A stretch of DNA of 64,000 nucleotides. Origin: Bacteroidales bacterium. GTDB taxonomy: Bacteria; Bacteroidota; Bacteroidia; Bacteroidales; UBA932. The notes under the pieces were generated by a model. It worked only from the letters and a program-made list of their open reading frames with translations. It did no database searches and was not told where the DNA came from. Of this stretch, positions 55,599 to 60,647 are shown in pieces. The position numbers and the translations under genes were made by a program. How positions within the stretch are numbered: position 1 is the stretch's first letter; each line of letters begins with the position of its first letter. The stretch is from the NCBI GenBank assembly GCA_016290385.1, contig JAEETO010000002.1, forward strand, positions 1 to 64,000, given 5' to 3'.

Positions 55599-56885
55599 TT
55601 ATCGCTGCTTGCGGGGAACAGCAAAACTGTCGACGGTGTGTCCGTGCTGGTCGTAGACCGTGACCAGGAGGCGGTTGGCTTCGACATCGACCGTGCAGGC
55701 GCAGCTCATGTCGAGCTCCTTGAGATCAAGGACCCTGGCATGACGGGGACTCTCGGTGAGGGACCGGTCCAGCGGGCGGCGCTTGTCACCGCTGGATCCC
55801 ATATCGAGGTAAAATGTCCCTTTCTCCGGATCCGTTGTGGGGCGGTCGCCATCCAGCGCAAAGGTACGGGAATAGATGTGGTCGTGGCCGCTCAGTACCA
55901 GGTCCACGCGGTATTTCCGGAATATGGGGAACCATTGCGGACGCAGGTTCCGGGCTACCGCTGAATCCACGATTTCCGAGCCGAAGATGGACTTGTGTTC
56001 AAATACCACGAGATACTGGTAGGTACCTGCCAGACGGTCGAGCGTTTCTTCGAACCAGCGCAACTGGTCGGAAAAACGCGTACCGGTGGAAATGTCGGAA
56101 TTGTGCATGTCCAGCGACACGAAGAGGACGTTGTTGCAGCGGAACCAATAGGAGGTGTTGCGGCTATCCGGTGCGCCGTTGTCGGGAAACTTGAACAGAT
56201 GATTGAACGTATAGGCATAGTCGTACTGGGGATAGTGCCCGTCAACCTTGTCGGAGGCCCAGTAAGCGTGGTCCCCGGGGGAACAGGCGTAGACGAAATC
56301 CCGGAACACATCGTTGTCGAGGAGGAAGGTCCACTCGTACTCGTTGCCCGCCACATCGATTTGATCCCCGCTGCAGAGCATCAGGACCGCATCTGAGGCC
56401 AGTTCTTTCATCTGTCGGACCAGCGGCAGCGTCACGGGATTCTCCCGATGCTGGAAGTCGGTGAATGCGACGAACTTCCAATTTCCCGGCACACCTGCGG
56501 TCCGGAAACTGCGGACATCCGATCCGGACCCGTCCGTCACAATTTTGTAGCAATAGCGGGTATCGGCAGCCAGGCCGGAGAGGGTCGCATGGCACACATA
56601 GCGTTCCTGCGTATAGAAAGTGGAGTTCCTGGCCGTGTTCGGGATTTCAGCCGTGCTCCAGCGCTGGCAGACCGGCCACGCTTTCTTTGCCATCGCGAAA
56701 TCCGGATCGGATTCCAGGGTATACAGGACATAACTGTCACTGCTGCTGCAATGGTAGTTGACGGTAACGGCGCTGGCAGGGTTCTCGGCCACCGTCGTGA
56801 CGATGTGCCAGGCCATCTGCTGGCCGTAGCCGGCAGGGCAGCACAACCATGCGGAAAAAATCAAGAGAAGTGAGAAACGTTTCAT
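55599..56885 (-). CDS. Secreted metallophosphoesterase (purple acid phosphatase-like)
   Basis: Signal peptide; KFVAFTDFQHRENP, CSGDQIDVAG, VLSGHDHIYSRTF. Confidence 0.8.
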   Translation of the reverse strand: MKRFSLLLIFSAWLCCPAGYGQQMAWHIVTTVAENPASAVTVNYHCSSSDSYVLYTLESDPDFAMAKKAWPVCQRWSTAEIPNTARNSTFYTQERYVCHATLSGLAADTRYCYKIVTDGSGSDVRSFRTAGVPGNWKFVAFTDFQHRENPVTLPLVRQMKELASDAVLMLCSGDQIDVAGNEYEWTFLLDNDVFRDFVYACSPGDHAYWASDKVDGHYPQYDYAYTFNHLFKFPDNGAPDSRNTSYWFRCNNVLFVSLDMHNSDISTGTRFSDQLRWFEETLDRLAGTYQYLVVFEHKSIFGSEIVDSAVARNLRPQWFPIFRKYRVDLVLSGHDHIYSRTFALDGDRPTTDPEKGTFYLDMGSSGDKRRPLDRSLTESPRHARVLDLKELDMSCACTVDVEANRLLVTVYDQHGHTVDSFAVPRKQR

Positions 56886-57856: not shown

Positions 57857-57880
57857 CGGCTACAGCCTTTCCTCCGCTTT

Positions 57881-58023
57881 ATCCCATTTCTCTGTCACGA
57901 AAGGGACGGTTCATCTATCTCATCCCTTTCGCGTCAAAGAATCGGGCGTTTTCCCTGAAAATGCCTCCACGAAAGGGAAGAAGCGGCGTCTGTGTACCTT
58001 TCGTGACAGACCCCACGACGCAG
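57881..58023. repeat. 143-bp palindromic REPIN/BIME-like element, copy A
   Basis: atcccatttctctgtcacgaaaggga...ccccacgacgcag; alternating cgaaagg/cctttcg hairpin arms; outer arms ctgtcacgaaagg / cctttcgtgacag are perfect inverted repeats. Confidence 0.8.
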
Positions 58024-58038
58024 AGACTCATTGAATAG

Positions 58039-59319
58039 TTAACGCAGCAGTTTTTCCTGCAGCAGGGAGTCCAATTCCTCCACTGTCGGGTCGATGGCCA
58101 GGATAGTACCGTCGCGGTCGAGGACGAAAGCCTTTGCGTGATTGGCCTTGAGGGAAGGAGCGGCATCGATGGCTACGAGATTGATCCAGGGATAGCCGTC
58201 TCTTTCGAGCGCCTTGCGCCAGGCCGCGTCGTTCTTGAATTCCAACGCGACGCCGACCATCGTGAAGTCTTCTCCTGCATATTTCTCGTAAATGGGAATG
58301 AGTGCCTTGCTCCGGATGCGGCAGGAGCCGCACCAGGAGGCCCAGAAATCGACCACGGCCAGTTTGCCGGCGGTCAGATCGGAAAGCTTATGCTGCACGC
58401 CTTCTGCATCAGGCAGTGTGAAATCCCGGAAGGAATCGCCCACCTGGTTGCCGGTCAGCGAAAGGATGATCGAATGATAGGGATGATCGGGGAACTTGTC
58501 TGCATAGGTGTGGTCGTACAGGTCGATCCAAGGCTGCAAATCCTTCTTGGAGACAAACGCAGACCGCAAATTCTGGTAAAGCAGGTAGAAGGAACTGATC
58601 ATGGGATGCTCCAACAGATACGCACCCTGCAGGCTGTCCTTCGCGGCATTGAGGGCATCCAACTCCCGCTTGACGGCCAGGCCCGCTTCGGTGTAACTCT
58701 CATCCAACTTCTTCAACTTGTCCGTCTCCGCCCAGATTTCCACGCGACGCTCCCGCGATGCAGTGTCTTCTTCTGCCATCAGGGCGTAGACCGCATCGGT
58801 ATACAGAGCTTTCTTTTCCATCAACGCCATGAATCGCTCTTCGACGGGCCCGGAGAGCGGATCCATGCTGTGGCTGATAAGCGAATAACGATTGAAGTTG
58901 TCGTTTTCAGGCGTGTCGGAGACCAGTTCTATGACCTCGCCAAATTCTACCGGTCCGATGATCCGGATGCCTTTCGCCGTCGGCACGAAAGGCCGGACCT
59001 GGGCCATACCGGATCCAGGTACCGAGAACACCAGTTCATAGACCAGCGTCGAATCCAGCCGGACCGTGCCCTCAAAGTTGCCCTTCTTCATCTTGAAGGT
59101 CGCGACCGGCTCATCCCGGAACCAGGACTGGTCCGGCCGGTAGACATATACTTTGGAATAGTCTTTCGTGACCTTTGTCCCGGAAATCGGACAATCGGTC
59201 ATAAACTGCTCCCGTTCAACGGGCAAAGCGTCCGAATCAGAAATGGCTCTGCTTTGATTGCCCTGGCAGCCCGCCAGAAAGATGGCGGCCAGCGTATAGA
59301 GAATAGCGTGCTTGAGCAT
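58039..59319 (-). CDS. Thioredoxin-fold (TlpA/ResA-like) lipoprotein with DUF4369-like N-terminus
   Basis: LAAIFLAGCQGN lipobox; VVDFWASWCGSCRIRSKALIPIYEKYAG (CxxC). Confidence 0.85.
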   Translation of the reverse strand: MLKHAILYTLAAIFLAGCQGNQSRAISDSDALPVEREQFMTDCPISGTKVTKDYSKVYVYRPDQSWFRDEPVATFKMKKGNFEGTVRLDSTLVYELVFSVPGSGMAQVRPFVPTAKGIRIIGPVEFGEVIELVSDTPENDNFNRYSLISHSMDPLSGPVEERFMALMEKKALYTDAVYALMAEEDTASRERRVEIWAETDKLKKLDESYTEAGLAVKRELDALNAAKDSLQGAYLLEHPMISSFYLLYQNLRSAFVSKKDLQPWIDLYDHTYADKFPDHPYHSIILSLTGNQVGDSFRDFTLPDAEGVQHKLSDLTAGKLAVVDFWASWCGSCRIRSKALIPIYEKYAGEDFTMVGVALEFKNDAAWRKALERDGYPWINLVAIDAAPSLKANHAKAFVLDRDGTILAIDPTVEELDSLLQEKLLR

Positions 59320-59346
59320 AGTATATTACTCTTGTTTTTAGCATTG

Positions 59347-59383
59347 AACCCATTCCCCTGTCACGATAGGGAAGAAGCGGCGA
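59347..59383. repeat. Short derivative of the 143-bp element (internal deletion)
   Basis: acccattcccctgtcacgatagggaagaagcggcg joins the left end (cccattt.ctgtcacgaaaggga) directly to the right-half block (agggaagaagcggcg) of copy A. Confidence 0.65.
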
Positions 59384-59536
59384 CCACAAAGATACATTAA
59401 AGATGGGCCGCATTTATGATTTCTTTTTTGATTTTGCGAAAAACTCCTTACCTTCGTAACAAGCATTTCGGCTGTGGCGGTAGAACGCGGCGGACGAATT
59501 GTGCGAATGATTTGTGTAACCAGAAAACGAAATGCC

Positions 59537-60475
59537 ATGAGAAAGACCTATCACATTTCTCTGTCCTCCCACGATGAGGTATTGTTCCGAAGTGAAGCCG
59601 ATCTGATCCGCGGCTTCAATTGCCTGGCGCTGGCATCGCTGGAAACTGATTCCCGCTTGCTGGCTGACGGTTTCCCTTCAACCCATCTCCATACTTTGGC
59701 GCAAACGGATGCGCCGGAGGAAGTGATACGTCGGTATCGCTATGCTTATGCCCGGTATTTCAATGCCAGATACAAGCGGCGGGGCCGGCTGGCCGAGCGG
59801 CAGGGCTTCATCCTGCATGTTGACGGATTTCATCATACGATGGCGGCGCTTAATTATGTCAATCGGCAGGGGCTCCATCACGGTATTTCCCCGACACCGT
59901 TCGGCTATCCTCATTGTTCGGCGAATGCTTTCTTCGCGAAGCAGTTGGGTAAGCTACATTCCAAGACATTGATGCCCGATACGGAGCGCTACAAGTATCT
60001 GCCGAAAGGCGTTGTCATTCCGCATCAATACCGTATGGATGCTACCGGCCTCCTGCTAAGGGAAGACATTCTGGACGTAGCCCAGGTGGAATCCTTCTAT
60101 GGAACCCCGCGGAACTATATCTACCAGATGAACAAGATAGGAGACGAGATGTCCCTCCGGGAACAGAAAGAGGAACCTTCTTCTTCGCCACTTATCACCC
60201 TTGAATTGATTGAGCAGGGAACACCGGATATGGATATTGAAAGACTTCTCCGCAATGAAAACGGGAAGCACGATCCCGCCTGGATATCTGATCTGGAACT
60301 TTGTGGCCTGATCGATGAGACCTGTCTGCCAAAATATTGCAAAGGAAAGACGATCTATGAAGCCTCCATTTCTCAGCGTGCCTTTCTCTACGACCTTATC
60401 GAAAAGAATCTGTGGCGATCCCGAAAGAAAAAGACGACCGATGCGCAACTCCGCCGCTGCCTCTGCCTGAAATGA
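59537..60475 (+). CDS. Divergent Y1/HUH transposase-like protein (RAYT/TnpA_REP-like)
   Basis: HUH-like STHLHTLAQT, then YRYAYARYFNARYKRRGRLAERQGFILHVDGFHHTMAALNYVNRQGLHHGISPTPFGYPHCSANAFF, matching the RAYT layout (NHYHLL / YNRRHGRVG / ...YIHLNP....YPWSSY). Start trimmed to 59537. Confidence 0.65.
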   Translation: MRKTYHISLSSHDEVLFRSEADLIRGFNCLALASLETDSRLLADGFPSTHLHTLAQTDAPEEVIRRYRYAYARYFNARYKRRGRLAERQGFILHVDGFHHTMAALNYVNRQGLHHGISPTPFGYPHCSANAFFAKQLGKLHSKTLMPDTERYKYLPKGVVIPHQYRMDATGLLLREDILDVAQVESFYGTPRNYIYQMNKIGDEMSLREQKEEPSSSPLITLELIEQGTPDMDIERLLRNENGKHDPAWISDLELCGLIDETCLPKYCKGKTIYEASISQRAFLYDLIEKNLWRSRKKKTTDAQLRRCLCLK

Positions 60476-60504
60476 AGCTTCGCTGCTGGGCCCTCGGTGG
60501 CTTG

Positions 60505-60647
60505 ATCCCATTTCTGTGTCTCGAAAGGGACCGTTCATCTATCTCATCCCTTTCGCGTCACGGAATCGGGCATTTTTCCCGGAAACGCCTCCACGAAAGG
60601 GAAATAGCGGCGCCTACATGCCTTTCGTGACAGACCCCACGGCGCAG
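60505..60647. repeat. 143-bp palindromic REPIN/BIME-like element, copy B
   Basis: Same orientation and same length as copy A, with scattered substitutions. Confidence 0.8.

Follow-up and report, generated by a model that had tools for sequence, protein, structure and literature searches.

Organization of the locus

Two palindromic elements, A (57878-58023) and B (60502-60647), both on the forward strand, enclose two genes in the 64,000-nt stretch of DNA analysed here (C120:1-64000, hereafter the window). The first gene, on the reverse strand, codes for a TlpA/AhpC-TSA-type lipoprotein (58039-59319). It is followed, on the forward strand, by a 42-bp internal-deletion derivative of the elements (59344-59385), a possible Bacteroidetes -7 box (59449-59456), a conserved leader (59463-59536) and a gene for a 312-residue protein (59537-60475), predicted to be a RAYT-like Y1/HUH endonuclease with a C-terminal extension (residues ~140-312). 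As the TlpA-like gene separates element A from the RAYT gene, only element B and the derivative are immediate neighbours of the latter. The TlpA-like gene also adjoins the RAYT gene in the related genome RUG13016, which has the element-TlpA-RAYT block in common with the window. The contig belongs to a 2.36-Mb genome in 154 contigs (hereafter the own genome). The host is a rumen Bacteroidales bacterium, and the relatives named below are uncultured Bacteroidales or Bacteroidia genomes, several of them rumen-derived.

The original prediction described A and B as two 143-bp palindromic copies. Both copies are real: they align in direct orientation (57876-58023 with 60500-60647, 2624 bp apart), with 87% identity over 148 nt, and copy A used as a query in the own genome retrieved B with an E-value of 5.7e-47. 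Their conserved unit is 146 bp long rather than 143 bp.

Architecture of the palindromic elements

We aligned 39 units over 146 columns, with gaps no longer than one base. Each unit comprises two hairpins (columns 16-29/46-59 and 87-101/118-132), with stems of 14-15 bp that each close a 16-nt loop. In element A, which was delineated by self-comparison, genome search and alignment (covariance model score 119.9 bits), the first stem (57893-57906/57923-57936) closes the loop at 57907-57922 and the second (57964-57978/57995-58009) the loop at 57979-57994. The hairpins of element B (122.6 bits) lie at 60517-60560 and 60588-60633. The alternating CGAAAGGGA and TCCCTTTCG arms folding into two hairpins, as initially proposed, were thus confirmed, both by single-stranded DNA folding, in which both copies beat shuffled sequences (z -5.3 for A and -2.6 for B), and by covariation among the 39 homologues. 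The stems differ between subfamilies (CGAAAGGGA, GGACGCTCGGTCCA, GCGACGCAGA, GCGAGACGGA, GCGACACAGA and others). Over the 39 units, pairing is kept in 86% of the cells, and 26 of the 29 stem pairs have changed on both sides. The covariation score was 0.573, vs 0.194 for shuffled alignments, of which none in 500 reached it, and 0.09-0.17 for slid ones; as the aligned elements are related, the shuffle count should not be read as a probability, and the slid control is the better guide. Chance repeats were ruled out by the E-values, the covariation and the controls.

The two hairpins have their stems in common and differ in their conserved loops (GATTCATCTATCTC vs CCAAGCGGCGCC), so that the unit is not a symmetric REPIN. 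Its left and right termini read TTnATCCCATT and GGCGCA, respectively. A 5-mer common to the right terminus and loop 2 was found in 21 of the 39 units, compared with a single unit for loop 1; for the left terminus, a 5-mer in common with loop 1 was found in 15 units, and one in common with loop 2 in three. The tetranucleotide GT[AG]G was found in none of the 39 units at the foot of hairpin 1, and in seven of them at each of the three other feet. Owing to the lack of a GT[AG]G foot and of a loop of a few nucleotides, and to the asymmetry, the label 'REPIN' given in the original prediction holds by analogy, not by strict definition. Short tandem repeats of the right terminus of the element (e.g. 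ACCAGCGCGCCGCAATCTTTATC) adjoin copies at L176:8050-8340 and beside elements in the loci L173 and L085.

Distribution of the elements

Nearly 90 distinct copies of the element were collected, mostly intergenic. In the own genome, copy A identified, besides B, a divergent full copy (C112:4019-4164), a 74-bp single-hairpin form (C120:70435-70508) and a right-end fragment (C120:65554-65580). The covariance model added C103:7772-7914 and two weaker matches, bringing the own genome to five clear copies plus partial and weak ones. With the covariance model, elements were detected in 20 of 40 genomes of the same genus. The highest number, up to 54 strand-wise matches, was found in G104 and corresponds to ~25 distinct copies, because palindromic copies match on both strands. 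Copy numbers are ~5-25 per genome, tens rather than the hundreds typical of REPs. The genome-wide count therefore extends well past A and B, in the own genome as in the genus. Four weak matches follow one another at a spacing of ~144 bp in G053:C23:18799-19447, an apparent tandem array.

Only 8 of 84 elements lie in an ORF of at least 200 residues, compared with 177 of 252 random control positions, and the elements are often at the 3' ends of genes. This intergenic test ruled out a protein-coding repeat. Units are found on one or both sides of close RAYT homologues across the genus. RAYTs of other genera and several paralogues of the own genome have their own hairpin pairs, on one or both sides; a few such RAYTs showed no hairpin pair within the stretch examined. 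Among the 19 same-genus genomes covered by both searches, elements are present in all eight that carry a close RAYT (E <= 1e-142), and of the other 11 only G016 and G115 gave matches, both weak (hypergeometric ~0.0006). The proposed link between the RAYT and repeated palindromes thus extends beyond the window: the genomes with elements are those with a close RAYT.

The RAYT-like protein

The motifs STHLHTL and ALNYVNRQGLHHG, which had suggested a Y1/RAYT-like identity, are present in the product of gene 59537-60475. They contain His50-Leu-His52 (59684-59692) and Tyr107 (59855-59857), the presumed nucleophile, which aligns with the Tyr of paralogues matching REP_Tyr_transpos. In an alignment of 24 family members, RAYT-like ones included, His50, His52 and Tyr107 are invariant. 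Distant members read MSNHIH and YVLRNPxHHG, and the middle residue of the HxH motif is not always hydrophobic, since HHH and HNH occur. The HUH-to-Tyr spacing of the window protein, 55 residues, is slightly below the RAYT/TnpAREP median of 58-67. No Trp is found between residues 52 and 107, and hence no W motif (WE/WQ/WT). Full-length close members have an intact reading frame and intact catalytic residues.

HMM searches, suggested along with the original prediction, matched members of the family but not the protein itself: the window protein alone has no match in Pfam or NCBIfam, but 9 of the 24 members match NCBIfam REP_Tyr_transpos and 6 match Pfam Y1_Tnp (E <= 0.01), relatives scanned singly scoring under the curated cut-offs of the RAYT and Y1_Tnp models. 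Similarly, a PDB search with the window protein alone gave chance matches only. The family profile ranked the IS200 transposases 2ec2 (E 0.004) and 2f4f (E 0.022) on top of the solved structures, with an E-value of 1.0 for the TnpAREP structure 4er8. In profile-profile comparisons (hhalign) with four RAYT-like paralogues of the own genome, the motifs align (E 6e-20). An AlphaFold2 model of the window protein from a shallow input of nine sequences has low confidence (pLDDT 47, pTM 0.29), and the HUH assignment thus rests on sequence profiles. The sequence comparisons support the predicted homology of the window protein to Y1/HUH enzymes.

Relatives at E <= 1e-20 were found in 49 genomes of a 200-genome sample of the host's family. 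In a 295-genome sample of the host's order, no match at E <= 1e-25 was found outside the own genome. Two or three RAYT subfamilies occur within tens of kb on one contig in G104:C15, G035:C7 and G068:C13, as if by local duplication followed by divergence, and a homologue of the S41 peptidase gene of the window lies close to some of these clustered RAYTs. One RAYT paralogue is truncated (L028:1399-1746; G000:C28:7456-7701): it consists of the N-terminal 82 residues with the HxH motif and a short in-frame C-terminal tail, with no Tyr region. In three divergent loci (L028 of G000:C28, L093 and L095), a gene is present upstream of the RAYT start, and in L028 it overlaps the RAYT start codon. The L028 copy has a Pfam match to a Myb-like DNA-binding protein; its product is possibly a partner protein of these divergent RAYTs.

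The 74-nt leader is 80% conserved over 20 RAYT loci with differing stems and subfamilies. It is closed by an inverted repeat, GCATTTCG/CGAAATGC, that stops one base short of the RAYT ATG, and it folds better than shuffled sequences (z -3.0). Its covariation support is thin because the outer pairs hardly vary, and an Rfam search over the locus, leader included, gave no match. Structured 5' UTRs limit expression of IS200-type genes. By analogy, it is a reasonable guess that the leader is a structured 5' UTR that might limit RAYT expression.

Joint diversification of RAYTs and elements

We compared stems and proteins at those RAYT loci that have elements close by. The stem difference is 9% within a locus, vs 45% between loci. 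The two copies at one locus differ by 9% in the stems, 14% in the loops, 26% in the spacer and 32% at the ends. In Mantel analyses between loci, stem difference correlates with protein difference (rho 0.51, p 0.0005), whereas loop difference does not (rho 0.12, p 0.18). The spacer also correlates (0.35, p 0.0015), as expected from shared descent. Residues 60-90, between the HxH motif and the Tyr, show the best correlation with the stems (0.70) and are also the most variable part of the protein. This association fits recognition or common descent alike and separates neither. Each RAYT subfamily is bordered by elements that have their own covarying stems and share common loops.

These data bear on the idea that the palindromes have no connection with the RAYT and are next to it by chance or through a common intergenic placement, as intergenic repeats with a regulatory or terminator-like role. 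Their intergenic location, often at gene 3' ends, and the stable RNA hairpins expected of them agree with such a role. It is nevertheless very improbable, as the elements flank the RAYTs of all close subfamilies examined, with stems that match the subfamily, further subfamilies come with their own hairpin pairs, and the elements are concentrated in genomes with a close RAYT. Conserved loops and termini with stems rewritten in each subfamily are not expected of terminators either.

Derivatives, empty sites and rearrangements

The short derivative reported in the original prediction is present as a 42-bp insert, in which the left end and first arm of the element are joined to the arm and loop of hairpin 2. 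It begins at the left terminus of the element and stops at the GCGGCG(ACC) of loop 2. In comparison with the 94%-identical orthologue of RUG13016, its site is empty there (TAACA|ACAAAG), with no target duplication. Two more partial copies break at the loop-2 GCGGCG, which lies approximately at the start of the C120:65554 fragment and at the end of a copy in RUG13016; this pattern of three cases was spotted post hoc. The comparison of empty sites thus gave a clean one for the derivative and none for full-length elements, since the intergenic flanks of the ~six solo copies searched in relatives were too diverged. Between G104 and G223, full-length copies are shared, with ~99% identity there. At one site, a full element in G104 corresponds to a single-hairpin form in G223.

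The window block 57877-60478 (element-TlpA-RAYT) is elsewhere in RUG13016, where it abuts an element, at the position that corresponds to the single-hairpin copy (70.4 kb) of the own genome. Segment 60476-63609 is inverted in RUG13016, with an element at the border. In a third species, G222 (L278, G222:C11), the genes that flank A-TlpA-RAYT-B (window 57862/60663) are directly adjacent. This site, which lacks the whole 2.8-kb locus, is either empty or the result of a deletion. The 65.7-70.5-kb segment is inverted in G222 across a full element. Each of these changes may have gone in either direction. A metallophosphatase-like gene (window 55599-56885; G200:C19:33863-35071) is beside the RAYT block in RUG13016 and on the other side of the S41 peptidase gene in the window, which represents another rearrangement.

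The gain or loss of the 42-bp piece without target duplication and the different places of the element-TlpA-RAYT block in two species, together with a Y1/HUH enzyme and subterminal hairpins, would also suit a degraded IS200/IS605 insertion sequence, bounded on the left and right by the elements and moving as a unit with its transposase. We consider this unlikely. Each flanking element is already a complete left-plus-right unit, its orientation relative to the gene varies by locus, and genomes have few RAYTs and many solo elements. Furthermore, the RAYT paralogues of the own genome are just 21-60% identical, unlike IS copies, and near-identical multicopy units were not found in this draft genome. 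As an incidental observation, no tnpB-like neighbour was noticed. A composite transposon with ends in fixed orientation was ruled out, since element orientation relative to the gene differs among loci.

The shortened forms join homologous arms, for which no transposase is needed, and ordinary recombination between repeated arms can account for several derivatives. RecA-type or slippage recombination between arms might even be the only process at work, the RAYT being now inactive or having another role and the elements being fossils of past movement. Single-hairpin derivatives joining homologous arms in two genomes are consistent with this scenario, as is the low copy number. However, the hairpins are the best-kept parts of the copies at a locus, frame and catalytic residues are intact in full-length close members, and breakage at the loop-2 motif, which is outside the arms, is seen repeatedly. 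We thus regard fossil elements as somewhat unlikely, with more in their favour than the insertion sequence.

Proposed mechanism and significance

We therefore favour, with fair confidence, the view that the locus is REPtron-like, composed of a divergent RAYT-type Y1/HUH endonuclease and its cognate non-autonomous elements. The cleavage and mobility attributed to it here are predicted from sequence. The system is of the REPIN/RAYT type but a distinct variant, as it lacks both a GT[AG]G foot and a W motif and has a long C-terminus, an asymmetric element and a low copy number.

A model can be drawn on the basis of the element architecture, the pairing of enzyme and element lineages, the conservation of the catalytic residues, one precise insertion or loss without duplication, and the copies present at breakpoints. 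The RAYT would bind the hairpins of single-stranded DNA, probably at the replication fork, and would tell its own from foreign elements mainly by the stem sequence, with residues ~60-90 as the best candidate for reading it. Tyr107 would then nick at sites marked by the loop and terminus motifs, TTCATC-like on the left and GCGGCG on the right. Through strand transfer, the small elements would be excised, copied or shortened, whereas the enzyme gene would remain at low copy, and recombination between element copies would rearrange the neighbourhood.

More tentatively, and with more doubt than conviction, we propose that the cuts are marked by the loops instead of a foot tetranucleotide. Each loop would contain the motif at which its side of the element is cut (TTCATC-like for the left hairpin, GCGGCGC for the right), and the freely rewritable stems would serve as an address for each RAYT. 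By rewriting the stem, duplicated RAYTs might then found new element families within one genome that are insulated from each other. This would amount to a new way of choosing a single-strand target.

To our knowledge, bacteria have few domesticated transposon systems, and RAYT/REPIN systems are among them. The question addressed by the window family is how a RAYT enzyme and its palindrome change together and yet keep each other. As one genus harbours many parallel RAYT subfamilies with the same architecture and loops and with rewritten stems, the recognition rules can be tested by swapping stems, loops and enzymes. The family thus represents a natural system for the coevolution of an enzyme and its target DNA, whose elements are in addition tied to inversions around the RAYT locus.

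Comparison with known systems

Like the gamma-proteobacterial RAYT/TnpAREP systems, the window family has a Y1/HUH enzyme beside cognate palindromes, dispersed intergenic non-autonomous elements and joint diversification of both. Canonical REPs are marked by a GTAG foot, and their loop is only a few nucleotides long (PMC3116915, PMC8266576). In the TnpAREP enzymes, the closest tested models, the GTAG foot guides cleavage, and bases of the loop or bulge are read (PMC8266576). Unlike those REPs, the elements of the window family have conserved 16-nt loops, variable stems, halves carrying different loops, and tens of copies. The window protein differs from gamma-proteobacterial RAYTs by its 312 residues, its lack of a W motif and its YVNRQ tyrosine motif.

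The original prediction assumed no well-described family of this type in this lineage. Bacteroidetes RAYTs flanked by 'atypical secondary structures' have, however, been published as subclass 2.6 in a classification of 4,043 Y1 proteins, which describes them as short proteins with WQ and NP motifs (PMC6006769). The window family resembles this TnpAY1 subclass in its Bacteroidetes hosts and in flanking structures devoid of GT[AG]G, of which additional copies occur elsewhere in the genome (PMC6006769). By their published description, the subclass 2.6 proteins are set apart (~179 residues, with NH[LIV]H, WQ and YIH[QN]NP motifs) from the window family (~310 residues, with THxH and YVNRQ and without W and NP motifs). 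Our search of the literature, with subscription journals and preprints outside its scope, found no description of the present family.

The long C-terminal domain that follows the Y1 core is a feature shared with TnpAY1 subclasses 2.1 and 2.3 and with the TIRYTs, the latter flanked by inverted repeats (PMC6006769, PMC3733652). According to the same classification, the subclasses with a long C-terminus have no REP-like elements (PMC6006769). Subclasses 2.1 and 2.3 and the TIRYTs are reported without REP-like hairpins; the window family thus joins a long C-terminal domain with cognate hairpin elements, two features that the published classification keeps apart.

Lastly, the window family is similar to IS200/IS605 and their transposase-less derivatives in the asymmetric left and right hairpin ends, the lack of target duplication (42-bp insert) and the predicted Y1/HUH chemistry. 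Unlike in IS200/IS605, no unit was found with a tnpA gene between one left and one right end; rather, each element has both ends and contains no gene.
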